Shown: piece by piece, positions 37,726 to 51,442 of the stretch
Layout of the letters: the number at the start of each line of letters is the position of its first letter
How positions within the stretch are numbered: the first letter of the stretch is position 1
DNA from: Asanoa sp. WMMD1127
GTDB taxonomy: Bacteria; Actinomycetota; Actinomycetes; Mycobacteriales; Micromonosporaceae
Length of the DNA stretch: 64,000 nt
Assembly (NCBI RefSeq): GCF_029626225.1
Contig: NZ_JARUBP010000001.1
Coordinates: 6,448,001-6,512,000 of the forward strand
Direction: 5' to 3'
Program-made: the position numbers and the translations under genes
The notes under the pieces: model-generated
Databases searched by the model: none
Seen by the model: the letters and a program-made list of their open reading frames with translations, nothing else
Told to the model about the DNA's origin: nothing

Positions 37726-37896
37726 ATGGGAATCAGGCGGCGGATTCTGGCTGCGCTCGCGGCCGCGGCACTGGTCGGGGCACCAGTGATCGGCGGTGTG
37801 GCGACCATCACGAGTGGACCGTCCACCGCGGACAAGGTGGTCGCGGAGCCGGTCGATCCGCACGGCTGCGCCGGCTGCGGCAACGGCGGCGCATGA
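37726..37896 (+). CDS. 56-residue exported peptide, translationally coupled to a LuxR/LAL regulator
   Basis: A short gene with a strong GGGGGG ribosome-binding site five to ten bases before the ATG. The peptide has a basic start (MGIRRRIL), a hydrophobic segment (AALAAAALVGAPVIGGVATI, residues 9-28) and a hydrophilic tail ending DPHGCAGCGNGGA with two cysteines. The TGA overlaps the ATG of the next gene (ATGA, 37893-37896), so its translation should feed that of the regulator. It could be a secreted signal, a small membrane partner of the regulator, or just a leader used for coupling. No peptide-modifying enzyme is nearby. Confidence 0.7.
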   Translation: MGIRRRILAALAAAALVGAPVIGGVATITSGPSTADKVVAEPVDPHGCAGCGNGGA

Positions 37897-40826
37897 CCGG
37901 TCCGACCCTGGCCGGCCTTCCCAAGGCGGCGGCAGCCACGTCTACCGTCCTCATCGGACGGACCCGTGAGCTGGACGTCATCGCCGAGGCGGCCGGCCAG
38001 GTTCGGCGTGGCGCCGGGCGGGTCGTGTTCGTCGCCGGCGAGCCCGGCATCGGCAAGACCCGGATGCTGCGGGAAGCGGCGGCGCTCGGCGCCGGCATGA
38101 CGGTGCTGACCGGACGGGCCACCCCGACCGGCGCCTCGACGCCGTTCCGGCCGCTCGTGGAGGCGTTCAACACCCGCCTGCGGTCCGGCCCGCCACCGGC
38201 CGACCCGGCGCTCGAGCCCTTCCGCCCCGCGCTGGCCCGCCTGTTCCCGGAGTGGCGGACGGCCCACAGCGGCCCGACCAGCGAGTCCACCCTGGTCGTC
38301 GCCGAAGGCCTGCTGCGGTTGCTGGCCGCCCTGAGCCGCGAGCGGCCCGTCGCGCTGCTGCTCGACGACCTGCACGACGCCGACCCGGAGACCCTGGACG
38401 CCTGCGGCTACCTGGTCGCCAACATCGCCGCCCTGCCGGTGCTGGTGCTGGCCGCCGCCCGCACCGGACCGTCCCCGGCCGAGCGCCTCGCCCACCGCCT
38501 GCACCGCGACCACCAGGTGCCCGTGCTCAAGCTGCACGCCCTGACCAGGTCGCAGGTCGCCGAGCTCACGGCCCAGTGCCTGGGCACGCGACCCGACCGG
38601 CTTCCGGACACCCTCGCCGACCAGCTGGCCCGCGACTCCGACGGCGTCCCCTTCGTGGTCGAGGAGCTGGTGGCCGGCATGGTGGCCACCGGCGTGCTCC
38701 GCCACGACGGACACGCCTGGCACACCGACCGCGACCTCGCGGGACGCGTCCCGGTGACCGTCGTGCACACCGTCGAGGACCGCGCCGACCGGCTGGGCCC
38801 CGACGGACGCCGGCTGCTCGAAGCGGCCGCCGTGTTCGGCAGCCGGTTTCCCTTGCCCGTGGTGCGCGCGATGCTGGACTGCACCCCGGACGAAGCGCAC
38901 CAGCTCATCCAGGCGGCGGCCGAAGCGCACCTGGTGCGCCCCGATCCCGCCGGCGACGGCTGGCACGCCTTCCGCCACGCGCTGACCGCCGATGCCCTCC
39001 GCACCCGGCTGACCCCGGACGACCGGCGCGCCCTCGCCGGCGCCGCCGCCCGCGCGCTCGAAGCGGCCCACCCGGACCTGCCCGGCGAGCTGGGCCCGCT
39101 CGCCGCCGAGCTGCGGCTGGCCGCCGGCGACGAGGTGGGCGCGGCCGACCTGTTCGCGACGGCCGGCAGAAGGGCGCTGGCCGAGGGTGCCGCCGCCTCC
39201 GCCGCGACCCTGCTCGAACGCGCCCACCAGCTGCTGCGCGACCGCCGCGACAAGCGGGACGCCGCGACCGCGGCCGCCGTGCTGGAGACGCTGCTCGTCG
39301 CCCTGGAGGAGACGGGCGAGTTCGACCGGGCCCGCCGCCTGGTCGACGCCATGCTGGCCCACCCCGACCTGCCCACCGACCAGGCGATCGCCCTGCAGTC
39401 TCGGCTCGGCTGGAACGCCTTCCACGGTGGCCGCACCGCCGACGCCGAGAGCCGGATCGCGGCGGTCCGCATGCTGCTCGGCCCGGACGCCGCGCCCGAG
39501 CAGCTCGCCGCGGCCGACGTCGTCGACGCCCACGTGCTCAGCCTCCACGCCGGCCGCGCCGACGAGGCCGAACAGGTCGCGCTGCGGGCGGTCGCGGCCG
39601 CGGAACGCGTACCCCTGCCGGAGGTGGTGTGTCGGGCCCGGCAGTTGCTGGCCCTGCTGGCCCGGCGGCACGGGTTCGCGGCGGCCGACCGGCATCTCCT
39701 CGCGATCCTGCGCATGGCCGACGAGCAGGACCTGCCACTGTGGCGTGTCCGGGCGGCGATCCGGCTGGCGTCCAACGAGATGATCCGCAGCGGGCGCAGC
39801 GAAGCGCTGCGGCAGGCCCGTGACGCGGCGTGGGCGATGGGCGCCGTGCACACCGGCTACGACGCTGACGCGAGCCTGGCGATGCACGAGGTCTTCTTCG
39901 GCCGGTACGCCGAGGCGGTCCGCCTGACGACCGAGTGCGCCACCGCCCTCACCCGGTTCGGCAAGGTCGTCGACCTCCAGTACGCGCTGGTGGTCCGGGC
40001 CGCCGCCCACGCCCACCGCGGCGCCCGCGCCGAGATGACCGCGACCCTCGCCGAGTACGACCGCCTCGGCGGCGCCGGCTCCTTCTACACCCCGCTGGTC
40101 CACGGCCTCTGCCGCGCGTTCAGCGCCCTGCTGGAGGAGGACCGGACCGGCGCCCGCGCCGAGCTCGAGGCGGCCCGCGCGTTCGAGGACCAGCACACCA
40201 CCATCTACTACCAGTGGGGCCGCTACGGCCTGCTGCTCCTCCTCGACGCGCTGGCCGGCACCGCACCGAGGACGACCACGCACCCCGCGTACGCGCTGCG
40301 CTGGAACCGACAGTTCGTCCACTTCGCGAAGGCCGTGCGGCACGGCGCGGCCGGCGACCCGGAGGGCGCGACCAGAGCGCTCGCCCGCGCCCGAGAAGCG
40401 GCGAGCGTCTTCCCCACCGCCCACCGGCTCGGCCTGCGCCTGGTGGCCGAGTCGGCGCTGGAGCACGGCTGGGGTGACCCGGCGGCCTGGCTCCGCGAGG
40501 CCGAGCACCACTTCCGCGAGCTCGACGCCCCGCTCGTCGCCAGCGCCTGCCGGACCCTGATCCGCCGGGCCGGCCAGCGCGCGCCGCAGCGCCGGGCCGG
40601 GCACGACCGCCTGCCGGCCGCGCTGCGGGAACACGGCGTGACCGTGCGCGAGTACGAGGTGCTGCTCCTGCTCGCCGACCGCCGGCCCAACAAGGAGATC
40701 GCCGAACGCCTCTATCTCTCCCACCGGACGGTGGAGAAACACGTCGCCAGCCTGCTGCGCAAGACCGGCCAGCCGGACCGGTCGGCTCTCTGCGGCTACG
40801 CCGACGCACTCCCCCGCGCCGAGTGA
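37893..40826 (+). CDS. Large ATP-binding LuxR (LAL) transcriptional regulator
   Basis: A 977-residue MalT/LAL-type activator. The N-terminal AAA/STAND ATPase has Walker A GEPGIGKT (49-56) and Walker B VALLLDD (153-159); a long TPR-like helical middle follows (residues about 400-880); the C-terminal LuxR helix-turn-helix is at about 910-970 (TVREYEVLLLLADRRPNKEI, LSHRTVEKHVASLLRKTG). Such proteins assemble on ATP and inducer binding to activate promoters. The start overlaps the stop of the 56-residue peptide gene. The 3' end overlaps the convergent APH-like kinase gene by 31 bases. Targets are unknown; the peptide and divergent secreted protein are the nearest candidates. Confidence 0.93.
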   Translation: MTGPTLAGLPKAAAATSTVLIGRTRELDVIAEAAGQVRRGAGRVVFVAGEPGIGKTRMLREAAALGAGMTVLTGRATPTGASTPFRPLVEAFNTRLRSGPPPADPALEPFRPALARLFPEWRTAHSGPTSESTLVVAEGLLRLLAALSRERPVALLLDDLHDADPETLDACGYLVANIAALPVLVLAAARTGPSPAERLAHRLHRDHQVPVLKLHALTRSQVAELTAQCLGTRPDRLPDTLADQLARDSDGVPFVVEELVAGMVATGVLRHDGHAWHTDRDLAGRVPVTVVHTVEDRADRLGPDGRRLLEAAAVFGSRFPLPVVRAMLDCTPDEAHQLIQAAAEAHLVRPDPAGDGWHAFRHALTADALRTRLTPDDRRALAGAAARALEAAHPDLPGELGPLAAELRLAAGDEVGAADLFATAGRRALAEGAAASAATLLERAHQLLRDRRDKRDAATAAAVLETLLVALEETGEFDRARRLVDAMLAHPDLPTDQAIALQSRLGWNAFHGGRTADAESRIAAVRMLLGPDAAPEQLAAADVVDAHVLSLHAGRADEAEQVALRAVAAAERVPLPEVVCRARQLLALLARRHGFAAADRHLLAILRMADEQDLPLWRVRAAIRLASNEMIRSGRSEALRQARDAAWAMGAVHTGYDADASLAMHEVFFGRYAEAVRLTTECATALTRFGKVVDLQYALVVRAAAHAHRGARAEMTATLAEYDRLGGAGSFYTPLVHGLCRAFSALLEEDRTGARAELEAARAFEDQHTTIYYQWGRYGLLLLLDALAGTAPRTTTHPAYALRWNRQFVHFAKAVRHGAAGDPEGATRALARAREAASVFPTAHRLGLRLVAESALEHGWGDPAAWLREAEHHFRELDAPLVASACRTLIRRAGQRAPQRRAGHDRLPAALREHGVTVREYEVLLLLADRRPNKEIAERLYLSHRTVEKHVASLLRKTGQPDRSALCGYADALPRAE

Positions 40827-41839
40827 GCCCGCGACGCCAACGCCCGCAAGCCCGCCGCCAGCAACGCCGGCACCGCCCGCTCCGCCTGCGCCGACGTCGC
40901 GTCCGCGGCCGCGCCCCGCCGGGCCCGGTAGCTGATGCCCTGCGCGATCACGGCCAGCTTGAAGTTGGCCAGCGCCAGATAGAACGGCCAGTGGTCGAGG
41001 TCCACGCCACGCCGCCGGGCGTACGCCTCGGCGATCGCGTCCGTCGGCGGGAGCCGGTCGCTGGCCCACGCGGCGTCGAGCCCGAGGATCGGGTCGAGCT
41101 CCGGCTGCCGGTAGACGCACATCAGCGCCACGTCGGTCAGCACGTCGCCGACCGTGGCCAGCTCCCAGTCGACGACCGCGAGCACCTTGCTGATGTCGGC
41201 GGCGTCGAGCAGCGTGTTGTCGATCCGGTAGTCGCCGTGCACCACACCGATGTGCGCGGACCGCGCCGGCAACGCCGAGGTCAGCAGGTCGTGCAGCCGG
41301 TTCGCGTCGGCGAGGTCGACACTCTTGACCTCGTTCCACTGCCGCCACCAGAGCCGCACCTGGCGGTCGAGGAACCCGTCCGGCCGCCCGAGACCGCCCA
41401 GCCCCACCGAGTCGACCGGCACCGCGTGCAGGTCGGCCAGCACCCGCACGAGTTCCGTGACGCACGCTTCCAGCGAGGCCGAACCATGGGCGGCCAACTG
41501 CCCCCGGGTACGCACGACCTGGCCGGCCACGAACCCGGTCACCGCGAACGGCGCGCCCAGCACGGTCTCGTCCGCGCAGAGCGCGACGGCCGGCGGCACG
41601 GGCACCGCGCTGTGCCGCAACGCCCGGGTGACCCGCCACTCCCGCGCCACGTCGTGGGCCGACTGGGTCAGGCCGGACAACGGCGGCCGGCGCAGCACCC
41701 AGCGGTGCACGCCGTCGAAGAGCGCGTACGTCAGGTTGGACCGGCCGCCGCTGATCAGCGACGCGGTCAGCTCACCGGCGACCGGGACGCCCTGCCCGGC
41801 CAGGAAGTCGCGCACCGCGGCCAGCGACGACGGGTTCAT
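40796..41839 (-). CDS. APH-like kinase of the ACAD10/11 N-domain (LvaA-like) type
   Basis: A 347-residue protein with the aminoglycoside-phosphotransferase fold. ISGGRSNLTYAL (nucleotide loop) is at about 29-40, the catalytic loop VVHGDYRIDNTLL near 199 and the metal-binding VVDWELATVGD near 222. The sequence belongs with the APH-like domains paired with acyl-CoA dehydrogenases (human ACAD10/11, Pseudomonas LvaA), which phosphorylate 4-hydroxyacyl-CoA, rather than drug-resistance kinases. It is the last gene of the long leftward operon; its ATG overlaps the SDR stop (ATGA). The dehydrogenase partner is at 50285. The specific substrate is inference. Confidence 0.85.
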   Translation of the reverse strand: MNPSSLAAVRDFLAGQGVPVAGELTASLISGGRSNLTYALFDGVHRWVLRRPPLSGLTQSAHDVAREWRVTRALRHSAVPVPPAVALCADETVLGAPFAVTGFVAGQVVRTRGQLAAHGSASLEACVTELVRVLADLHAVPVDSVGLGGLGRPDGFLDRQVRLWWRQWNEVKSVDLADANRLHDLLTSALPARSAHIGVVHGDYRIDNTLLDAADISKVLAVVDWELATVGDVLTDVALMCVYRQPELDPILGLDAAWASDRLPPTDAIAEAYARRRGVDLDHWPFYLALANFKLAVIAQGISYRARRGAAADATSAQAERAVPALLAAGLRALASRAHSARGSASA

Positions 41840-42573
41840 GCCGCGTACCCCCGGGTCCCGGCCCGGCTGAGCACGATCTCGTTGACCACCGTGCGCGCGG
41901 ACAGGTCGAGCAGCGTGGTGACCGTGTCGACCACGTCCGAGACCGGGATCATCGACGACGGCGGCACCTCGTCGTGCACCCAGGCGCTCATGTCGGTGTC
42001 GACGTAGCCGGGCGCGATGGCGGTCGCCAACACACCGGCGGCCGACTCCTCCGCGTTGAGCCCGCGGCACAGCGCGAGCAGCGCCGCCTTCGTGGCCCCG
42101 TAGACGGCCAGCGACGGCTCGGCGTAGACGCCGCCGATGGAGGCCAGCGCGATCACCCGCGCGCCGTGGGCCGGATCGCGTCGCGCGGCGGCCCGCAGCA
42201 ACGGCAGCGCCGACCGGATCAGCAGGAACGGCGCCCGGGTGTTCAGCGCGAACTGCTTGTCGTAGCGCCCGACCGGGTAGCCGTCCAGCGGAGCGGCCGA
42301 GCCGACGCCGGCGGCTAGCACGAGGGCGTCCAGCGCGTCGGGGCGATAACCGGACAGCACGGTCGCCGGCGCCGCCGGGTCGGCCAGGTCGACCGCCACC
42401 GTGTCCACATCGGACGCCCCGAGCTCGACGGCCGAGGCGGCGACGAGCGCCAGCCGGGCCGGATCGCGCGCGACCAGGGTGAGCCGCCAGCCCCGCCGGG
42501 CCAGGGCGAGCGCGATGCCCCGCCCGATCCCCCGCGACGCCCCGGTGACGACGGCCGATCGCGGCTCAGCCAC
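41836..42573 (-). CDS. Short-chain dehydrogenase/reductase of the operon
   Basis: A 245-residue classical SDR: VVTGASRGIGRGIALAL at residues 8-24, an AAGVG loop, catalytic Ser in VIALASIGGVY, and YGATKAALLAL with the Tyr and Lys. PGYVDTDMS follows as in FabG-like enzymes. The GTG start overlaps the TetR gene by 8 bases, and the stop overlaps the kinase start by 4, so it is translationally coupled on both sides. In this setting it could reduce or oxidise an oxo/hydroxyacyl-CoA, comparable to LvaD; that role is inferred from context. Confidence 0.88.
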   Translation of the reverse strand: MAEPRSAVVTGASRGIGRGIALALARRGWRLTLVARDPARLALVAASAVELGASDVDTVAVDLADPAAPATVLSGYRPDALDALVLAAGVGSAAPLDGYPVGRYDKQFALNTRAPFLLIRSALPLLRAAARRDPAHGARVIALASIGGVYAEPSLAVYGATKAALLALCRGLNAEESAAGVLATAIAPGYVDTDMSAWVHDEVPPSSMIPVSDVVDTVTTLLDLSARTVVNEIVLSRAGTRGYAA

Positions 42574-43177
42574 CGATGCCCACGATCGACCGCGCGATCG
42601 TCAGGTAGCGGTCGAGCAGCGCCTCGACGGGCAGGGAGCCGTCGGGCCGGTACCAGGAGGCGACACCGACACAGAGCGACGCGATGGCCCGGCTGGCGTC
42701 CTTCGGGTAGGGCGTGGTGAACACGCCGTCGCGTACGCCCGTGAGGATCACGTCGTCGAGCATGCGCTGCTGCTCGTCCCGCTTGGCCACGTAGCGCTCG
42801 CGGTTGCCGGGTTCGAGGCTGCGCAGCTCGGCGGTGGAGACCATGGCGCCGGTGCGCCGGTACATGTGGAACCGCAGCAGCGACTCGACCAGCGCGTCGA
42901 ACTGGGCCCGTGGCTCGGGCGGCGCGCCCGCCAGCGCGTCCCGGCTGCGGGTCAGCAGCTCGTCGATGACGACCATCATGAGGTCGACGAGGATGTCCTG
43001 TTTGGAGGCGTAGTAGTGGTAGACGCCCGGCACCGACAGCCCCGATCGGCGAGCCAGGTCGCGCGTGGTCGTGCCGTGGTAGCCGTGCTCGTAGAAGGCC
43101 CGCAGCGCGGCGTCGAGGATGCGCGGGAAATCGAGCGGCCCGTAGTCGCGCCAGTCGGACATCGTCACCTCGTTCAT
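42566..43177 (-). CDS. TetR family regulator inside the catabolic operon
   Basis: A 203-residue TetR protein. The helix-turn-helix is RILDAALRAFYEHGYHGTTT followed by DLARRSGLSVPGVYHYYASK (about residues 19-58). The C-terminal part (FDALVESLLRFHMYRRTGAM, SLEPGNRERYVAKRDEQQ) matches TetR regulators of acyl-CoA and fatty-acid type operons. The ATG at 43177 overlaps the stop of the ligase gene (ATGA); a second ATG at 43162 has a better Shine-Dalgarno (GAGGTG) and may be the real start. It probably binds the inverted repeats at 50166-50200 in the divergent promoter of the cluster, with an acyl-CoA as ligand; both points are inference. Confidence 0.88.
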   Translation of the reverse strand: MNEVTMSDWRDYGPLDFPRILDAALRAFYEHGYHGTTTRDLARRSGLSVPGVYHYYASKQDILVDLMMVVIDELLTRSRDALAGAPPEPRAQFDALVESLLRFHMYRRTGAMVSTAELRSLEPGNRERYVAKRDEQQRMLDDVILTGVRDGVFTTPYPKDASRAIASLCVGVASWYRPDGSLPVEALLDRYLTIARSIVGIGG

Positions 43178-45135
43178 CGGGCCCGCCGTCGGGCGTGCGC
43201 GGAGCTGATCAGCGTGTCGAGCGCCGCCGGGTTGTCGACCGCGCCGCGGTTGACCACCTGGGCGGGGTCGGCGCCCTGCAGGATGCGTTTGACCGGGACC
43301 TCGAGCCGTTTGCCGGTGCGGGTGTGCGGCAGCTCGGTCACGACGATCACGTCGTCGGGCACGTGCCGAGGCGAGGCCCGCTCGGCGATCCGCCGCCGGA
43401 TCCGCTCGACTAGGTCCGCGGGCGGCGGGTCGCCCTGCGGGACCACGAACAGCGGCAGCCAGTAGCCGCCGTCGGCCTCCTCCACGCCCACGACCAGCGC
43501 GTCGGCCACCTCCGGCAGCGAGAGCACCGCGTCGTAGATCTCCGCCGACCCCAGGCGTACGCCGTGGCGGTTGATCGTCGCGTCGGACCGGCCGAGGATC
43601 ACGACCGTGCCCCGCTCGGTGATCATCGTGAGGTCGCCGTGCCGCCACACGCCGGGGAACGCGTCGAAGTAGGTGGCGCGCAGCTTGCGGTCGTCGGGGT
43701 CGTCCCAGAAGCGCAGCGGCATCGACGGCATCGGCTCGGTGATCACCATCTCTCCCGGTGTGCCGGGCGGGACCGGCTCGCCGTCGGCGTTCCAGACCTC
43801 GACGGCGGCGCCCAGCGCCGGAGCGCTGATCTCGCCGTCGAAGACCGGGGTCGTCGGCGCGCTGGCGACGAAGATGCCGACGATGTCCGTGCCTCCGCTC
43901 ATCGATCCTAGTTGGACCCGCGCGCTGACGTGTTCCCGGAACCAGGCGTTGGCCGACGCGGGCAGCACCGATCCTGTCACCCCGACCAGCCGCAGCGCCG
44001 AGAGGTCCAGGTCCCGCCCGGGCGCGAGGCCCGCGCGCCGGGACGCCTCCAGGTACCCCGGACTGGTGCCGAGAACCGTCACGCCGAGGTCCGCGGCGAC
44101 GCGCCAGAGCGCGTCGGGGCCCGGTGCGGTCGGGCGGCCGTCGTAGAGGACGGTGGTCGCGCCGTGCAGCAGGCCGCACACCTGCGCGTTCCACATCATC
44201 CAGTTGGGCGTGGTGTACCAGAAGAAGACGTCGTCGGCGCCGAGGTCCATGTGCAGGCCGGGCGAGACCAGCTGCTCCAGGAGCACGCCGCCGTGGCCGT
44301 GCACGATGCCCTTGGGCTTGCCGGTGGTGCCCGAGGTGAACAGCACCCAGAGCGGGTGGTCGAACGGCACGGGGAGGGCGTCGGCGACCGGTGCCGCCGC
44401 CAGCGCGTCCGCCCACGTGCTGTCGGCGACGGCGGTGAGCCCGGCGGTCGGGACCGTGACGGTGTGCCGCAGGCCGGGCAACAGCTCACGCAGCGCCGCC
44501 GCCTCGTCGCGCCGGTCGTGCACCACTCCCCCGAACCGGTAGCCGGTCCCGGCGAACAGGACGGTGGGGCTCAGCTGGGCCATCCGGTCCGCCGCCGCCG
44601 TGGCCCCGTAGTCGAGCCCGGTCTGCGCCCACACCCCGCCGACCAGCGCGGTGGCGACGAACGCGACGACACCTTCGACGCAGTTCGGCAGGTACGCGGC
44701 GACCCGGTCGCCCGGCTGGACCCCGAGGACCCGCAACCGGCCGGCGACGGCGTACGACTGGGCCCGCAGCTCCGCGAAGCTGATCGCGGTGCGCGCGCCG
44801 TCCTCGCCGACCAGCACCACGGCGTCCCGGTCGGCGGCGCCGGCCCGCAGCAGGTGCGCCCCGAAGTTCAGCGTGCCGCCGGGGAACCAGACCGCCCCGG
44901 GCATCCGCCGGTCGGCCAGCGCGCGGCGCGGCCAGGCCGTCCACTCGACGTCGAAGAACTCGGCGACCGCCGCCCAGAACTGGCCCGGCTGCGCCACCGA
45001 CCAGGCGTGCAGCGCGCGGTAGTCGGTCACGTCGTCCAGCGACAGCCGGCCCTGCCCCTGGAGCCAGGCCGCGAACCGGACGATCCGGCTCTCCCGGACC
45101 GCGACCGGGTCGGGCACCCAGCCCGGAGCGGTCAC
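43174..45135 (-). CDS. Acetoacetyl-CoA synthetase-like acyl-CoA ligase
   Basis: A 653-residue adenylate-forming ligase of normal AacS length. The N-terminal acetyl-CoA-synthetase-like part (ALHAWSVAQPGQFWAAVAEF) is followed by the AMP-binding P-loop LFTSGTTGKPKGIVHGHGG (about 270-288), SMSGGTDIV, and the C-terminal hinge and lysine region (GRSDATINRHGVRLGSAEIY, and RTGKRLEVPVKRIL with the catalytic Lys). AacS activates acetoacetate or similar short oxo/hydroxy acids with CoA in the cytosol. The GTG start overlaps the permease stop (GTGA). In this operon it would activate the imported acid, as LvaE does for levulinate; the substrate is inferred. Confidence 0.9.
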   Translation of the reverse strand: MTAPGWVPDPVAVRESRIVRFAAWLQGQGRLSLDDVTDYRALHAWSVAQPGQFWAAVAEFFDVEWTAWPRRALADRRMPGAVWFPGGTLNFGAHLLRAGAADRDAVVLVGEDGARTAISFAELRAQSYAVAGRLRVLGVQPGDRVAAYLPNCVEGVVAFVATALVGGVWAQTGLDYGATAAADRMAQLSPTVLFAGTGYRFGGVVHDRRDEAAALRELLPGLRHTVTVPTAGLTAVADSTWADALAAAPVADALPVPFDHPLWVLFTSGTTGKPKGIVHGHGGVLLEQLVSPGLHMDLGADDVFFWYTTPNWMMWNAQVCGLLHGATTVLYDGRPTAPGPDALWRVAADLGVTVLGTSPGYLEASRRAGLAPGRDLDLSALRLVGVTGSVLPASANAWFREHVSARVQLGSMSGGTDIVGIFVASAPTTPVFDGEISAPALGAAVEVWNADGEPVPPGTPGEMVITEPMPSMPLRFWDDPDDRKLRATYFDAFPGVWRHGDLTMITERGTVVILGRSDATINRHGVRLGSAEIYDAVLSLPEVADALVVGVEEADGGYWLPLFVVPQGDPPPADLVERIRRRIAERASPRHVPDDVIVVTELPHTRTGKRLEVPVKRILQGADPAQVVNRGAVDNPAALDTLISSAHARRRAR

Positions 45136-46340
45136 AGCCGCCGCCCCGGCAGCAGCGACCCGCGGGTCAGCACCACGTCGACCGCCACGGCGACGATGAG
45201 CACGGCGCCGGTGGCGAAGTACTGCACCTCGGTCGAGAGGCCGAGCAGCTGGACGCCGTTGCTGATCGAGCCGATCACCAGGGCGCCGAGGAGGGCGGAC
45301 CAGATGGAGCCGCGGCCGGCGAACAGGCTCGTGCCGCCGACCACGGCCGCGGCGATCGCGTTGAGCATCAGCGGCCCGCCGCCCGAGGTGACCGAGACGC
45401 CGAGCTGCCGGGACGCGTCGACCATGCCGGCCACGGCGGCGCAGGCGCCGAGGACCAGGAAGGAGTAGAGCACCATGCGGCGGACCGGGATGCCGGCGCG
45501 CTGGGCGGCCTCGCGGTCACCGCCGGCGGCGTACAGGTGGATGCCGTAGCGGGTCTGGGTCGTGGCGTACCAGGCGATGAGCATCATCACCGCGAGGATC
45601 AGCAGGGGCAGCGGCAGGCCGCGCTGGCGGGTCAGGGTGAACACGCCCCCGAACAGCACGACGGCGACGAGCAGCGAGGGCACGACCACCGCGGCGAGTG
45701 AGGTGAGCGAGCCGGTGGAGAGGCGCTCGCGGTGCTGGAACAGGCGGTACGCGGCGTACGCGAGCGTGCCGACCGCGGCCAGCCCGTAGCTCGCGCCCGC
45801 CGGGACCGCCGTGCTGGCGATCTTGGCGAACGGGGTGCCGGCGACGCTGACCGTGAACTCCGGCGGCAGCACGACCAGGATCAGGCCCTGCAGGATGACC
45901 ATGCCGCCGAGCGTGACGATCAGCGACGGCACGCCGAACATGATGATCTGCGCCTCGACGAACGTGACGCCCATTCCGGCGACCACCGCGGCCGCGATCC
46001 CGACGGGCAGCGGGAGTCCACTGTTGACGGTCAACCCGGCCGCCACCGCCGCGCACACCCCGGACAGGACCGCCGACGACAGGTCGATCTCGCCGACGAG
46101 CAGCACGAAGACGACCCCGAGGGCGAGGATCGCGGTGGTCACGATCTGCAGGGTCAGGTTGGTGATGTTCTGGAAGCTGAGGTACGCGCTGCTCTGGCTG
46201 TAGAAGACGGCCCAGATGATCGCAAGCACGACGAGCACCGGGATGCTGCGGTGCCCCCGCGCGGCCGCCTCGATCGCCCGGGTGACCCGGGTGCGGGTGG
46301 CCGCGGGCGCGCCGACCGCGGGTGTGGTCGAGATGGTCAC
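45132..46340 (-). CDS. ABC importer permease, RbsC/XylH family
   Basis: A 402-residue polytopic protein with about ten membrane segments. Family features include ILALGVVFVLLVGEIDLSS, PSLIVTLGGMVILQGL, the cytoplasmic EAA-like loop AAGGDREAAQRAGIPVRR and NGVQLLGLSTEVQYFATGAV. It resembles XylH-type sugar permeases, but close relatives also carry other small solutes. The start overlaps the ATPase gene stop (ATGA) and its end overlaps the ligase start, so the importer and ligase are translated together. Confidence 0.92.
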   Translation of the reverse strand: MTISTTPAVGAPAATRTRVTRAIEAAARGHRSIPVLVVLAIIWAVFYSQSSAYLSFQNITNLTLQIVTTAILALGVVFVLLVGEIDLSSAVLSGVCAAVAAGLTVNSGLPLPVGIAAAVVAGMGVTFVEAQIIMFGVPSLIVTLGGMVILQGLILVVLPPEFTVSVAGTPFAKIASTAVPAGASYGLAAVGTLAYAAYRLFQHRERLSTGSLTSLAAVVVPSLLVAVVLFGGVFTLTRQRGLPLPLLILAVMMLIAWYATTQTRYGIHLYAAGGDREAAQRAGIPVRRMVLYSFLVLGACAAVAGMVDASRQLGVSVTSGGGPLMLNAIAAAVVGGTSLFAGRGSIWSALLGALVIGSISNGVQLLGLSTEVQYFATGAVLIVAVAVDVVLTRGSLLPGRRL

Positions 46341-47104
46341 GGCTCTCCGCCTTCGTCGTCGGTGGACTCGGCCGCACCGGTCATCGCGCTGACCAGGTCC
46401 GCCGGGGTGTAGCCGCCGCGGGTGAACTCGGCGACCTTCGCGCCGAGCCGCAGCACGACGACCCGGTCCGCCACCTGCCGCACGTCCTTCATGTCGTGCG
46501 AGATGACCACCACGCCGCGGCCCTGCTCCCGGAGGCGGGCGATCAGGTCCAGCACCTCACCGCGCTGCGAGACGCCGAGCGCCGCGGTCGGCTCGTCGAG
46601 CAGCACCACCGCCGGGTCGCTGATCAGCGCGCGGCCGATCGCGATGCCCTGGCGCTGGCCACCGGAGAGCGCGACGACCGGCGTGTTGAGCGCCCGCAGC
46701 TTGACCGACAGCGACTCGAGCACGCGCTGCGCCTGCTCCTCCATGACGTGCCGGCGGACCCGCCGCCCGGACCAGACCGGGCCGTAGCGCTCCTGCCCGA
46801 GGAACAGGTTCTGCACCGCGTCGAGGTTGTCGCAGAGCGAGAGGTCCTGGAAGACGGTGCGGATGCCCGCCTCGGCGGCGGCCCGTGGGGACTCCAGGCG
46901 GCGGGCCTCGCCGCGGACGCGGATCTCGCCCTCGTCGTGCGGCTCCACACCGGACACGATCTTGACCAATGTGGACTTTCCCGCGCCGTTGTCGCCGACG
47001 AGGGCCACCACCTCGCCCGCGTGCACCGACAGGTCGACCTCGTGCAGGGCGCGTACGCCGCCGAAGTGCTTCGACACCTTCGTCAGCTCGAGTAGAGGGG
47101 TCAT
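46337..47104 (-). CDS. ABC importer ATPase (single NBD, sugar type)
   Basis: A 255-residue ATPase. Walker A VGDNGAGKSTLVK (about 37-49), Q-loop FQDLSLCDNL, signature LSGGQRQGIAIGRAL and Walker B VVLLDEPTAAL with H-loop ISHDMKD are all intact. It is a single NBD (as in XylG-half or FrcA-type systems) rather than the tandem RbsA form, so two copies should pair. GGAGGAAGGAAG directly precedes the ATG. A strong hairpin separates it from the binding-protein gene upstream. Confidence 0.93.
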   Translation of the reverse strand: MTPLLELTKVSKHFGGVRALHEVDLSVHAGEVVALVGDNGAGKSTLVKIVSGVEPHDEGEIRVRGEARRLESPRAAAEAGIRTVFQDLSLCDNLDAVQNLFLGQERYGPVWSGRRVRRHVMEEQAQRVLESLSVKLRALNTPVVALSGGQRQGIAIGRALISDPAVVLLDEPTAALGVSQRGEVLDLIARLREQGRGVVVISHDMKDVRQVADRVVVLRLGAKVAEFTRGGYTPADLVSAMTGAAESTDDEGGEP

Positions 47105-47120
47105 GCTTCCTTCCTCCGCC

Positions 47121-47148
47121 GGGCGGCCGGCGTGCCCGCCGGCCGCCC
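47121..47148 (-). terminator. Intercistronic hairpin between the binding-protein and ATPase genes
   Basis: A perfect 12-bp GC stem (GGGCGGCCGGCG) with a TGCC loop in the 56-base gap after the binding-protein stop and before the ATPase ribosome-binding site. It may act as a partial terminator or 3' stabiliser so that binding protein is made in excess. Confidence 0.6.
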
Positions 47149-47160
47149 GCTGACGATGGG

Positions 47161-48302
47161 CTACTTGTTGCGGGTCTGGCAGGTCGGCGTCTGCGCCGCC
47201 GGGCCCGTGCAGATCTGCTGCCACGTGAACATGCCGAGGTCGACGGCCTGCTGCACCGCGTCGCCGGGGTCCTTGCCGTCCTCGAGGTGGATCAGCGTCG
47301 CGTCGAGCTTGGCCGTGGGCACCTGCATCGCGCCGTTGTCGATGGTGTCCTTGACCAGGTCGGCCGGCGGCTGCTGGCCACCGATAGCCGCAACGGCGAT
47401 CTTCGCGGCGGCCTCGGCCTCGACCTTGAACGCCTTGAGCACGTTGTCCTGCTGGTCGCCGGTCAGCATGTACTGCAGGCCCGTGAGCTCCGGGTTCTGG
47501 CCGCCGTACACCGGGATCTGAACGCTCTTGCCCTTGAGCGCGGCGATGATGCCGGCCGTGATGCCGTCGTAGAAGCCGAGGAACGCCCCGACGCCGTTCT
47601 GCGTCTTGGTCAGGCACTGCTCGGTCGCCTTCGTGGCGTTGTCCGGCGCCCAGTCCTTGATGTAGTCCTCGCAGACCACCTGGATGTCGCCGCTGCTGAT
47701 CAGCGGGTCGAGCACCTTGTTCTGCCCGGCCAGCATCTGCGTGGTGTAGACGTCGCCCTTGTTGCCGTACTGCCGAGCGATCTTGACCGGCTTCGCGCCG
47801 AGCTTGCCGCTGGTGACCTGCTCGGCGAAGTAGGTTGCCTGTTGCGCGCCGACCTTCTCCGGGTCGAACACGACCTGGGCGTAGAGGGTGCCCTTGATGG
47901 GCGGGTTCTCATAGCCGATGACCGGGACCTTGGCCTGCTCGGCGGCCTGCAGCAGGCCCGCGCTGGTGTTGGGGTCCGCGGCCACGACGACCAGCGCCTT
48001 GGCGCCGGCCGCGATCGCGGCGTTGGCCTGGGCGAGCTGCTGGTTGGAGTCGCCGCCGGCGTTGACGAACTTGACCTCGACGTTCGGGTCGAGCGCCTTG
48101 ATCGCCTTCTCGAACGCCGGGCCGTCCTGCTGGATGTAGCGGGTCGGGGTGGTGTTGGGGGCCATGAAGTAGACGAGCTTCGAGCCGGAACCGTCGCCCG
48201 AGCCGGCGTCGTCGCCGCCGCACGCGGCGACCGAGAGGAGAAGGCTGGCGCTGGCCGCTCCGGCGATGACCGCCCGGCGGAACGCGCCATGAGACGCTTC
48301 AC
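47161..48302 (-). CDS. ABC substrate-binding lipoprotein (Peripla_BP_4 type), apparent 1-base deletion near the 5' end
   Basis: About 380 residues. Mature features are intact: lipobox LLLSVAACGG, then VYFMAPNTTPTRYIQQ, VEVKFVNAGGDSNQQLAQAN, VVVAADPNTSAGLLQAAEQA, PVIGYENPP and YGGQNPELTGLQYML, a sugar-type periplasmic binding protein. The only good start is the GTG at 48302 with GGAG seven bases upstream; it gives MKRLMAR and then goes out of frame. The signal sequence FRRAVIAGAASASLLL is in another frame with no ATG, GTG or TTG. One base is missing between 48290 and 48283 relative to an expected MKRLMARFRRAV. Either a real null or leaky mutation, or a sequencing error. Confidence 0.8.
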
Positions 48303-48392
48303 TGGGTACTCCTTCTGGTGAACATCGGTGTGGAGGCGCGCGGCATCGGGACGGGACCCGGGCGGGGCCGTCCGTTGTCGTGCCTGTGCCCG

Positions 48393-50147
48393 TCAGGGCG
48401 TAGGGAGTCCCGCGTGCTTCGCGGTGATCTGCAGGGCCAGGTGCTTGGAGTAGATGCGGACCCAGGCGAGCGGTCCGCCCATGTACCAGAACGCGGGGTG
48501 ACCCGTGCGCCGGTACAGGCCGCCGATCTCGCCGTCTTCCCCGATGCCGAGGACGAGCGGGAGCCGGTCGGCGACCGCGTCGCCGAAGAGCCGGCGGGCG
48601 GTCTCGCGCATGTTCTTGTATCCCGTCGCGAGGACGACGAGGTCGGCCTCGAGCGTGCGGCCGTCCGCCAGGCGGATCCCGTCGGGCGTGAACGCGGCGA
48701 GGCCGGCGCCCTGCGCCAGCTTGATCTTCCCGTCGGCGATCAGCCCGGAGGCGCCCACGTCGATGTAGTAGCCACCGCCGTAGGCCAGCGCGTAACCCAT
48801 CAAACCGGTGCCGTCGGGACCGTCGTTGCGCTTGAAGCCGACCGCGTCGAGGGCGGCGAGCAGCGCGGCGTCCTTCTCCGCGGTGGCTTTGACGCCGTCC
48901 TTGGCGAACTCCAGGACCAGCGGCCACGGGGTTCCGGCGGCCAGCAGGTCGGCGTACGCCGTCGGCGGGCCGCCCTCGACGAAGTTGCTGCCGAAGATGG
49001 CCGGGATGCCGTGCTCCTGGCTGATGATGTGGGTCGACGAGCGCTGCACGAGCGTCACGTCCGCACCGGCCTCGTAGAGGTCCTGCGCGATGTCGTGACC
49101 GCTGTTGCAGGCGCCGACGACGACCGCCTTCTTCCCCGCCCAGTCGCCGGCCGCGCCGTGACGGCTGGAGTGGTAGGTCGTCCCGGCGAACGACTCGCGG
49201 CCCGGCACGTCGGGCACGTTGGGCTCGCCGGCCGCGCCGGTCGCCAGGATGACGTCGCGGGGGCGCAGCTCGCGCTCGCCCTGCGGCGTGCGGACCCGCA
49301 GCGTCCACCGGCCGGCGGCCTCGTCGAAGTGGCTGTCGGTCAGCTCGGCCGACGTCCAGACATTGAGCTCCATCGCCGCGGCGTACGACTCGAACCAGTC
49401 GGCGATCTTGTCCTTCGGGCAGTAGACGGGCCACGAGTCCGGATAGGGCAGGTAGGGCAGGTGGTCGGCCCACACCGGGTCGTGCAGCACCAGCGAGTGG
49501 TAGCGCTTGCGCCACCCGTCGCCGACCCGCTCGCTCTTCTCGAGGATGAGCGTGTCGACGCCCATGAGGCCGAGGTTCGCGGCGACCGTCAGGCCGCCCT
49601 GGCCGGCGCCGATCACCACGACGTCGGGGTCGGGGTCGGCAATCCTCTGCTGCCGCTGTTGCAGCCAGTTGCGGCCGCCGGCCGGGTTGTGCCGCGGGCC
49701 GCGGGACCGGCGCGGGCCGATCGCCCGCTCGTGCCCCCGCAGGTCGTCGAGCTCGGTCAGCACGGTCCAGGCGACCCAGTCGCCGTTCTCCCGTCGGAGG
49801 CGCACCGCGCCGCGGCCGAAGCCGAGCGGGGTCTCGAACGTGATGAACGCTTCGACCGTGTCGCCGGCGAAGCGGGGGCCGAACTCCGTGGTCAGCCGGA
49901 CGTTCGTGATCGCGTCGGGGGTCAGCCGCTCGGCCAGCATCGCGGCGACCTGCTCCTGGCCGTGGTAGGTGCCCAGGTCCCAGGTGAGCGCCAGCAGGTC
50001 GCGCCACCAGCAGTCGCGGGCCAGCAGCGCGGTGGTGCCCGCGACGTCGGCGGCGGCCAGTGTCGCGGTGATTCGGTCCAGCCACGCGGCGAACGTGGCC
50101 GCCGCCGTGGCTTCGGTCGCGATGGTCTGGTGTGTATCCGTCGCCAT
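48393..50147 (-). CDS. Flavin-containing monooxygenase with N-terminal NTF2-like domain
   Basis: A 584-residue FAD/NADPH enzyme. Residues 1-150 form a SnoaL/NTF2-like domain (FAAWLDRITATLAAADVAGT, RLRRENGDWVAWTVL). The FMO part has the FAD site VVVIGAGQGGLTVAANLG (about 174-191), the NADPH site AVVVGACNSGHDIAQDLYEA and the late ATG motif VVLATGYKNM. Such proteins hydroxylate or insert oxygen beside ketones, N or S. The ATG has GAAGGG eight bases upstream. It is first in the leftward operon, divergent from the acyl-CoA dehydrogenase. A Baeyer-Villiger role producing an ester or lactone is possible but not shown. Confidence 0.88.
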   Translation of the reverse strand: MATDTHQTIATEATAAATFAAWLDRITATLAAADVAGTTALLARDCWWRDLLALTWDLGTYHGQEQVAAMLAERLTPDAITNVRLTTEFGPRFAGDTVEAFITFETPLGFGRGAVRLRRENGDWVAWTVLTELDDLRGHERAIGPRRSRGPRHNPAGGRNWLQQRQQRIADPDPDVVVIGAGQGGLTVAANLGLMGVDTLILEKSERVGDGWRKRYHSLVLHDPVWADHLPYLPYPDSWPVYCPKDKIADWFESYAAAMELNVWTSAELTDSHFDEAAGRWTLRVRTPQGERELRPRDVILATGAAGEPNVPDVPGRESFAGTTYHSSRHGAAGDWAGKKAVVVGACNSGHDIAQDLYEAGADVTLVQRSSTHIISQEHGIPAIFGSNFVEGGPPTAYADLLAAGTPWPLVLEFAKDGVKATAEKDAALLAALDAVGFKRNDGPDGTGLMGYALAYGGGYYIDVGASGLIADGKIKLAQGAGLAAFTPDGIRLADGRTLEADLVVLATGYKNMRETARRLFGDAVADRLPLVLGIGEDGEIGGLYRRTGHPAFWYMGGPLAWVRIYSKHLALQITAKHAGLPTP

Positions 50148-50165
50148 TGACGCGCCCTTCCGTCC

Positions 50166-50181
50166 GTATCAGTCTTGATAC
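50166..50181. promoter_or_regulatory. Inverted repeat in the divergent promoter (candidate TetR operator)
   Basis: GTATCAGTCTTGATAC has perfect 6-bp arms with a 4-base spacer, 19 bases upstream of the monooxygenase ATG. Confidence 0.55.
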
Positions 50182-50184
50182 AGT

Positions 50185-50200
50185 CCGAGCGCTCGCTCGG
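50185..50200. promoter_or_regulatory. Second inverted repeat in the divergent promoter
   Basis: CCGAGCGCTCGCTCGG has perfect 7-bp arms and a CT spacer, four bases from the previous repeat. GAGCGCTC-type palindromes are common TetR-family targets. GAAACTTTC at 50247-50255 is a further small palindrome nearer the dehydrogenase gene. Confidence 0.55.
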
Positions 50201-50284
50201 TAGCGAGAGTCTGGACCCTCGACCTTGTGACGAGCAACACCTTCGTGAAACTTTCTCGCAACCCGGCCGACAAGTGAGGTGCCC

Positions 50285-51442
50285 ATGACCGATCGGTTGA
50301 CCGACCTCGTCGCGCGGACGAGGGCGTTCGTCGACGAGCACGTGATCCCCGTCGAGGACGCGTGGGACGGCGACGCCACCGCCGCGGGCGGCGACCGGCT
50401 CCGCGTCGACCTGCAGCGGGCGGCCCGGGCGGCGGGCGTGTTCGCCCCGCACGCGCCCCGCGAGTACGGCGGCCTGGGGCTTGGGATGGCCGACCGCGCG
50501 CCGGTGTTCGAGGCGGCCGGGCGGTCGGTGTTCGGGCCGATGGCGCTGAACCTCAACGCGCCCGACGAGGGCAACCTGCACCTGCTGGACCAGGTGGCGG
50601 TCGGCGAGCAGCGCACGCGCTACCTGGCGCCGCTGGCCCGCGGCGAGCAGCGGTCGGCGTTCGCGATGACGGAGCCGCCGCCCGGCGCCGGGTCGGACCC
50701 GAGCGCACTGTTGACCACGGCGCGGCGCGACGGTGCGGGGTGGCTGATCGACGGGCACAAGAAGTTCATCACCGGGGCCGACGGCGCCGGGTTCTTCATC
50801 GTGATGGCCCGGACCGATGGGGCCACCATGTTCCTGGTGCCGGCGGACCGGGCCGGACTGCGCATCACCCGGCATGTGCCCACAATGGACAAGTCGATGA
50901 TCGGCGGACACTGCGAGATCGAGCTGTCCGGAGTGCGGGTGGGTCCCGACGACGTGCTGGGCGAGGTCGACGAGGGGTTCCGCTACGCCCAGGTGCGCCT
51001 CGGTCCGGCCCGGCTGACGCACGTGATGCGGTGGCTGGGCGCGGCCCAGCGGGCGCACGAGACCGCGGTCGCCTATGTCGCGCAGCGCTCGTCGTTCGGC
51101 CGGCCGCTCGCGGAGCAGGGCATGGTCGAGCTGATGATCGCCGACAACGAGATCGACCTCGCCGCGACGCGGGCCCTGCTGCTGACCGCGTGCCGGGCGA
51201 TCGACTCCGGCGCCGCCGGGCGGGAGGAGACCTCGCTGGCCAAGGTGTTCGGGGCCGAGGCGGTGCACCGGGTCGCGGACCGGGCCGTGCAGCTGTGCGG
51301 CGGCGCGGGCGTGTCGGCCGATCTGCCGGTCGCCCGGATCGCCCGCGAGATCAGGCCGTTCCGGATCTACGACGGCCCTTCGGAGGTCCACCGGATGTCG
51401 CTCGCCCGGCGGGCCGTCCGAAGGTACGGCCGGCGCGACTGA
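50285..51442 (+). CDS. Acyl-CoA dehydrogenase of the ACAD10/11 type
   Basis: A 385-residue FAD enzyme with the three ACAD domains. FAMTEPPPGAGSDPSAL and GHKKFITGADGAGFFIV mark the middle domain; the C-terminal helices carry RLGPARLTHVMRWLGAAQRA, FGRPLAEQGMV, KVFGAEAVHRVADRAVQLCG and AGVSADLPVARIAREI. These match the ACAD10/11 group, as does RIYDGPSEVH, where the catalytic Glu of classical ACADs is Asp. In that group the enzyme works with an APH-like kinase on 4-hydroxyacyl-CoA; such a kinase is at 40796. AGGTG lies before the ATG. The TGA abuts the stop of the convergent sortase gene. Confidence 0.88.
   Translation: MTDRLTDLVARTRAFVDEHVIPVEDAWDGDATAAGGDRLRVDLQRAARAAGVFAPHAPREYGGLGLGMADRAPVFEAAGRSVFGPMALNLNAPDEGNLHLLDQVAVGEQRTRYLAPLARGEQRSAFAMTEPPPGAGSDPSALLTTARRDGAGWLIDGHKKFITGADGAGFFIVMARTDGATMFLVPADRAGLRITRHVPTMDKSMIGGHCEIELSGVRVGPDDVLGEVDEGFRYAQVRLGPARLTHVMRWLGAAQRAHETAVAYVAQRSSFGRPLAEQGMVELMIADNEIDLAATRALLLTACRAIDSGAAGREETSLAKVFGAEAVHRVADRAVQLCGGAGVSADLPVARIAREIRPFRIYDGPSEVHRMSLARRAVRRYGRRD

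Follow-up and report, generated by a model that had tools for sequence, protein, structure and literature searches.

A conserved actinobacterial gene cluster links a CUT2-like importer, a type II flavin monooxygenase and an AacS-like ligase to an LvaC-type dehydrogenase and an ACAD10/11-type kinase

The window analysed here is a stretch of 64,000 nucleotides from Asanoa sp. WMMD1127 (bases 6448001-6512000 of contig C1; genome 7.97 Mb) and contains a nine-gene cluster. Eight genes run leftward, encoding in order a flavin monooxygenase (FMO), a binding protein, an ATPase, a permease, an acetoacetate-CoA-ligase-like (AacS-like) ligase, a TetR regulator, a short-chain dehydrogenase/reductase (SDR) and an aminoglycoside phosphotransferase (APH)-type kinase; a divergent plus-strand gene encodes an acyl-CoA dehydrogenase (ACAD) (Table 1). 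We read gene content, residues, co-conservation and a conserved palindrome from the sequence. New here are the two-module build of the cluster, the palindrome at the FMO start in all 23 named loci with a called FMO start, and a fusion of ligase and TetR in six loci that hold only the core of the cluster. The positions of all nine genes given in a preliminary description of this DNA are borne out, with Pfam and NCBIfam backing each assignment. So are the overlaps of 4-8 bases that it noted from ligase to kinase (ligase/TetR 4 bp, TetR/SDR 8 bp, SDR/kinase 4 bp); further upstream, ATPase/permease and permease/ligase overlap by 4 bp each, and a gap of 56 bp separates the binding-protein and ATPase genes. 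The FMO and ACAD starts lie 137 bp apart if the ACAD begins at ATG 50285, which we prefer over the GTG at 50279 chosen earlier.

Table 1. Features of the cluster (window positions, except where a locus is named)
Feature	Position	Strand	Evidence or prediction
APH-fold kinase of ACAD10/11 type, 347 aa	40796..41839	-	PF01636 139 bits; PDB 3dxp, 9o56, ACAD11 8v3v; predicted 4-hydroxyacyl-CoA kinase
SDR oxidoreductase, 245 aa	41836..42573	-	PF00106 117 bits; predicted 4-oxo/4-hydroxyacyl-CoA reductase
TetR regulator	42566..43177	-	TetR_N, TetR_C_24
Acetoacetate-CoA-ligase family enzyme, 653 aa	43174..45135	-	TIGR01217 708.9 bits, cut-off 520.9
ABC permease	45132..46340	-	PF02653 114 bits; best NCBIfam GguB, below cut-off
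ABC ATPase, single nucleotide-binding domain, 255 aa	46337..47104	-	PF00005 108 bits
Lipoprotein binding protein, XylF/ChvE fold	47161..48302	-	PF13407 138 bits; frame appears shifted near start
Type II FMO, SnoaL/NTF2-like N-domain, 584 aa	48393..50147	-	PDB 8acs E 1e-137
Palindrome CCGAGCG-CT-CGCTCGG	50185..50200	.	predicted TetR operator between divergent promoters
LvaC/ACAD10-11-type ACAD, 385 aa	50285..51442	+	residues Arg238, Arg243, His246, Arg249, Asp363; tree
Two-piece ligases	L037:11005-13341, L038:10224-12377		in-frame extra stretch

Judged by residues and relatedness, the enzymes at the two edges of the cluster are a pair consisting of an LvaC-type dehydrogenase and an ACAD10/11-type kinase. 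The preliminary description had proposed a split ACAD10/11-type system, and residues, neighbourhood and trees agree with it; the two motifs that it singled out, RLGPARLTHVMR and RIYDGPSEVH, are both present in the ACAD. According to Rashan and colleagues (PMC12440821), R626, H634 and R637 of mouse ACAD11 hold the 4-phosphate, D753 is the base and R631 has a general role. The window ACAD matches R626, R631, H634, R637 and D753 with Arg238, Arg243, His246, Arg249 and Asp363, the catalytic Asp standing in place of Glu, and its HCMR motif reads HVMR (Cys to Val). These 4-phosphoacyl residues are kept in 11 of 11 aligned ACADs, including the second ACAD of the same genome, and of the 19 ACADs that PF00441 detects in the genome two have the set (the window ACAD and L132), both of which adjoin the genome's only two kinases of this type. 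PMC11342911 describes ACAD10/11 orthologs as a distinct subgroup of ACADs. In our tree of 28 ACADs the ACAD11 and LvaC rows share one 21-row clade (support 100/99) that leaves out all seven other own-genome ACADs in the tree, a contrast set taken from the genome's 17 others; the window ACAD groups with LvaC (17-row clade, 100/99) and not with ACAD11, and shares 54% identity with the LvaC homologue encoded in an lva-like operon from Stutzerimonas.

In the kinase, Asp203, Asn208 and Arg159 align with ACAD11 D220, N225 and R176, and Arg66, preceding the helix-C Glu, is kept; R86 of the ACAD11 paper could not be placed by the numbering used here. ACAD11 matches the window kinase at 142 bits (HMMER), and identity is 49-54% to Georgenia and Rhodococcus kinases, 43% to the second own-genome kinase and 26% (48.5 bits, BLAST) to the LvaA homologue; the kinase type proposed earlier thus stands as regards ACAD11, but the protein is not an LvaA ortholog. 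The phylogeny that the preliminary description named as a possible refutation did not place kinase or dehydrogenase outside the LvaA/ACAD10-11 clades, the kinase tree having been built without other APH families and showing the LvaA row as a very long branch. One own-genome relative of the kinase was found at E <=0.001 among 23 candidates scored, itself included, and it adjoins the second ACAD; the APH family as a whole has 50 matches in the genome, some of them pieces of one gene. Mammalian ACAD10 and ACAD11 likewise combine kinase and dehydrogenase, and all the ACAD11 residues named above for both activities are kept, except that the window has two separate divergent genes, HVMR rather than HCMR, an ACAD nearer LvaC than ACAD11, and linkage to an importer, an FMO and an AacS-like ligase. 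From this comparison we predict with good confidence that the pair acts on 4-hydroxyacyl-CoA.

The second own-genome pair (L050:6776-8952, about 3884.8-3887 kb on C1) is of ACAD11 type (HCMR, LADGPDEVH) and is 38-44% identical to the window pair, and at L044:13641-14752 an LvaC-type ACAD with a kinase beside it is matched by two pieces that overlap but differ in frame, which gives it the look of a broken gene.

Among 200 genomes of the family, own included, an ACAD of at least 52% identity occurs in 18, and the next best listed match has 44%. A search for the same nine-gene set, proposed in the preliminary description, found all nine in the same order at 67-95% identity in eight of the 17 relatives with a close ACAD, so that the arrangement is not due to chance. 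A kinase match lies in the region in 16 of the 17 (none in L046). A profile of the binding protein led to 25 named loci in Asanoa, Paractinoplanes/Actinoplanes, Micromonospora, Actinomadura, Pimelobacter, Nocardioides, Aeromicrobium and metagenome bins. The two sets overlap: five of the 25 loci are contigs of five of the eight nine-gene relatives, and L069 is the contig of L040, one of the 17, which has core, ACAD and kinase without SDR. Contig ends cut L067, L069, L072, L074 and L076. All nine genes are present in nine of the 25, with L067 as a tenth whose FMO and ACAD lie on another contig of the same genome; counted singly, ligase and TetR occur in 23 each, kinase in 17, ACAD in 14 and SDR in 10. 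L065 and L077 have the kinase and no ACAD at the locus.

By gene content, the cluster is built of two modules: a core of importer, FMO, AacS-like ligase and TetR, which also occurs alone, and an added ACAD-kinase(-SDR) module. The latter is also found on plasmids of Georgenia and Rhodococcus, the core being absent from the 10 kb around it; there the same three genes are 49-67% identical to those of the window (61% and 53%, respectively, for the SDRs beside ACAD-kinase), whereas no FMO, CUT2-like importer or AacS-like ligase is annotated within 10 kb; the Georgenia module has an ABC transporter of other annotation within that distance. ACAD-kinase pairs without the core also occur in some family relatives. 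On the plasmid of Rhodococcus sp. ZPP (L052:4441-18249), ACAD-kinase-SDR stands beside AtuA-like, biotin-dependent carboxylase, thiolase and ligase genes.

By its position, a putative control element is shared by the two modules. CCGAGCG-N2-CGCTCGG in the FMO-ACAD gap is kept in nine of nine aligned gaps; of the 23 loci, 20 have it 37-61 bp upstream of the FMO start and L064 at 149 bp, and in L075 and L076 it lies 21 and 26 bp inside the called FMO start, which was probably called too early in both. The exact motif has a single site in the own genome and, among 12 relatives, one site in 10, two in G594 and four in G598. A reversed-control motif has 0-2 sites per genome, so a single match carries little weight by itself and its position a great deal. 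With up to one mismatch the own genome has 19 sites versus 30 for the reversed control, per strand, and therefore information comes only from exact copies at the expected position. A regulon search with the palindrome in the own genome and the 12 relatives found no further member tied to the pathway; of three sites outside clusters, the two examined (L155, L158) have no cluster genes nearby, and the third is on G598:C442. ACAD and kinase lie after TetR in three loci (L069, L070, L074), and since the moved ACAD is preceded by a second exact copy in L074 (35 bp) and by a one-mismatch copy in L069 (34 bp), the relocated pair carries the same motif in two of three cases. The cluster TetR is predicted to bind this palindrome.

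The ligase exceeds the cut-off of NCBIfam TIGR01217, the AacS equivalog model, and an acid-CoA ligase step is probable on this basis. A second AacS-like ligase of 49% identity lies at G000:C1:754536-756437, with another ACAD roughly 2 kb away at 758805. In the six core-only loci, ligase and TetR form one stop-free open frame of 866-875 residues (L071:13158-15782, L073:13203-15830, L075:13147-15750, L078:13244-15847, L079:13157-15757, L080:13210-15813). The hosts are Pimelobacter, Nocardioides and Aeromicrobium, and none of the 17 other loci having both genes shows the fusion. In L071 and L080, the two fusions tested, each half scores over its Pfam cut-off, and an internal start may give a separate TetR in these loci. 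Ligase matches fall in two pieces in seven loci of five species (L037/L062, L038/L068, L058, L063, L066; the slash joins entries on the same contig); in Paractinoplanes such ligases are one frame with no stop and an extra 159-336 bp after about residue 235 (Table 1).

The FMO matches JsFMO (PDB 8ACS) over residues 19-584, N-terminal domain included. Pfam does not call the SnoaL/NTF2 domain at E 0.001, and its assignment follows from this near full-length similarity. His222, Asp223 and Tyr460 align with JsFMO H216, D217 and Y458, and with the catalytic His-Asp-Tyr kept in a type II architecture, the earlier view of an NTF2-fused monooxygenase of the Baeyer-Villiger kind holds. The N-terminal SnoaL-like extension and the His-Asp-Tyr site are shared with JsFMO, R. 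jostii FMO-E/F/G and Pimelobacter PsFMO; unlike these, the window FMO sits in a conserved importer-ligase-TetR operon. The JsFMO paper treats type II FMOs as biocatalysts, and the words 'gene cluster' occur nowhere in its main text. From these residues we consider a Baeyer-Villiger step an evenly balanced prospect, and the natural substrate of the window FMO may differ from that of JsFMO-type enzymes.

The importer had been described as sugar-type. This holds for the binding-protein fold and the permease family, both of which resemble XylF/ChvE CUT2 sugar importers, and not for the ATPase: CUT2 ATPases usually have tandem nucleotide-binding domains, whereas that of the window has one and aligns only to the first half of AraG/XylG-type models of about 500 aa. 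The binding protein is a Peripla_BP_4 protein with a lipobox-like LSVAACGG, and its model (mean pLDDT 76) is nearest XylF (Foldseek best 3ma0, E 2e-19), followed by other CUT2-type proteins including ChvE. XylF Asp90-Arg91, which we take to act in sugar binding, correspond to Glu125-Asn126 in 16 of 16 aligned cluster binding proteins (numbers counted by hand on the alignment). Together these features suggest a CUT2-like importer whose solute is small and polar and need not be a sugar, and the transporter of relatives with an intact gene very likely imports some solute. An ordinary sugar-use operon was rejected, as no Pfam or NCBIfam match over cut-off marks any of the nine gene products as a sugar enzyme. 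At the phylum level the binding protein was found at E 1e-30 in 22 of 396 genomes besides its own, always at no more than 39% identity. A distant homologue (40%) with ATPase and permease lies on an Aureimonas plasmid (L053:8866-20978) in a row that also holds inositol-dehydrogenase-like, maleylacetate reductase and intradiol dioxygenase genes, which do not settle its ligand.

We moderately favour, as the most likely role, the catabolism of an imported ketone-type compound by way of 4-hydroxyacyl-CoA, taking the whole chain together. Here we infer the substrates of all the proteins, which way the SDR and FMO reactions run, what TetR senses and that it binds the palindrome. The operon would be inducible and catabolic, with the CUT2-like ABC importer taking up a polar precursor and the FMO converting a ketone into an ester or lactone in Baeyer-Villiger fashion; hydrolysis, spontaneous or by an enzyme outside the cluster, would give an oxo- or hydroxy-acid. 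The AacS-like ligase would form its CoA thioester, the SDR, where present, would reduce 4-oxoacyl-CoA to 4-hydroxyacyl-CoA, the kinase would phosphorylate the 4-hydroxyl, and the ACAD would eliminate phosphate to give a 2-enoyl-CoA for beta-oxidation. TetR would sense acyl-CoA and repress both promoters from the one shared palindrome. Tentatively, this may be a previously undescribed actinobacterial pathway, equipped with a dedicated importer, in which a type II FMO cleaves a ring or chain in Baeyer-Villiger fashion and 4-phosphoacyl-CoA elimination follows. On that reading ligase and repressor would act as one sensing unit, merged into a single protein in Nocardioides, Pimelobacter and Aeromicrobium, and the producer of the acyl-CoA would be placed next to the regulator responding to it.

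Several observations weigh against this role. The SDR alone is missing from otherwise complete clusters in L057 and L064, and the core stands without kinase, ACAD or window-type SDR in six of the 25 loci (L071, L073, L075, L078, L079, L080), so the proposal of 4-hydroxyacyl-CoA catabolism in the preliminary description, strengthened by the residues and trees of kinase and ACAD, is weakened here. When nine core genomes, some of them draft assemblies, were searched with the window ACAD, three Nocardioides (L075, L076, L078) had an LvaC-type ACAD of 67-69% identity elsewhere, and the best ACAD in the genomes of L065, L071, L073, L077, L079 and L080 was at most 42% identical. Because of the core-only loci and these six of nine genomes without an ACAD above 42%, the job of the core need not use 4-phosphoacyl chemistry. 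The model that the ligase matches describes enzymes acting on a 3-oxo acid, acetoacetate; the nine genes include neither a lactonase nor an esterase; and in L070 the ACAD is not preceded by a second palindrome. Finally, the binding-protein gene of the window (searched as 47161-48282) is open for at least 373 residues, but from 48168 to 48420 its frame offers none of the start codons ATG, GTG and TTG, and the start matching that of relatives, GTG 48302 after the ribosome-site-like AAGGAGTA, is in another frame (start region 48168-48302). The gene looks frame-shifted within the signal peptide, through an assembly or sequencing error or in reality, the importer then being damaged; the genes of relatives are not frame-shifted.

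The same modularity would fit two independent functions under one regulator. The core would then break down one compound as far as a 3-oxoacyl-CoA, for example acetoacetyl-CoA, on which thiolase can act directly, and the ACAD-kinase(-SDR) module would dispose of a second substrate or of 4-hydroxyacyl-CoA arising as a by-product. The six core-only loci, the plasmid modules and family pairs without the core, and the AacS equivalog assignment of the ligase all favour such an arrangement. However, one palindrome lies between both promoters and also precedes the moved ACAD in two of three loci, and the nine genes stay linked in several genera; we consider a division into two functions rather unlikely.

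A substrate variant of the ketone-catabolic role, and thus not exclusive of it, is the breakdown of a cyclic compound, either an alcohol or a ketone (for instance a terpenoid or a derivative of cyclobutanone), with a mycofactocin-type SDR oxidising the alcohol and the FMO opening the ring. CUT2-type binding proteins usually take polar solutes, and the window cluster has no mycofactocin-type SDR, which makes this variant improbable for the cluster described here. Type II FMOs do convert cyclobutanones into lactones (JsFMO paper), a mycofactocin-coupled SDR (TIGR03971, over cut-off) comes after the ligase-TetR fusion in both Pimelobacter and Nocardioides sp. LHD-245, and by annotation a mycofactocin-type SDR follows a related FMO in R. 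opacus.

The close parallel to the Pseudomonas levulinate (lva) operon drawn in the preliminary description did not hold. Our reference is a Stutzerimonas plasmid operon, matched to lva by the gene order that PMC6692424 describes and arranged as regulator, phosphotransferase, DUF6285, histidine phosphatase, ACAD, SDR, acyl-CoA synthetase and symporter; the same source has P. putida LvaA working with LvaB. An operon for levulinate or 4-hydroxyvalerate that had P. putida lva as its equivalent, the FMO and importer being accessory, would share four activities by class (ligase, SDR, kinase, ACAD) and the LvaC-clade ACAD. Yet the kinase (26% to LvaA), SDR (29% to LvaD) and ligase (27% to LvaE) are not orthologs of the Stutzerimonas homologues, and the ligase belongs to the AacS family whereas the LvaE homologue belongs to PRK08162. 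The LvaB family (DUF6285, PF19802) has no match in the own genome, the control being found in two of 14. TetR takes the place of a PrpR-like regulator and the importer that of a cation-acetate symporter, and levulinate use is not known to need a monooxygenase. A plain lva operon was rejected on these grounds, and equivalence in the looser sense is very doubtful. That the kinase is an aminoglycoside-resistance enzyme lying by chance in a metabolic operon, as the APH family assignment by Pfam might suggest, was rejected as negligibly probable: the APH(3') model scores 29 with a cut-off of 205, ACAD11 is among the best solved relatives, and kinase orthologs adjoin metabolic genes in the loci examined.

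The bacterial 4-phosphoacyl-CoA route is, to our knowledge, known mainly from levulinate use. The route was assigned to mammalian ACAD10 and ACAD11 only in 2024-2025 (PMC11342911, PMC12440821), and our literature search, which covered sources partly available, found no account of the nine-gene cluster. A conserved actinobacterial operon would supply the route with a natural context of importer, oxygenase and ligase. The defined palindrome offers a handle for seeking the natural inducer, the ligase-TetR fusion could be a natural acyl-CoA sensor, and if the FMO is the entry step this would hint at what type II FMOs do physiologically. Beyond the kinase end of the cluster, a large gene at 37893-40826, whose product appears by eye to be a LuxR-type ATPase regulator, runs toward the kinase gene, and the tails of the two overlap by 31 bp.

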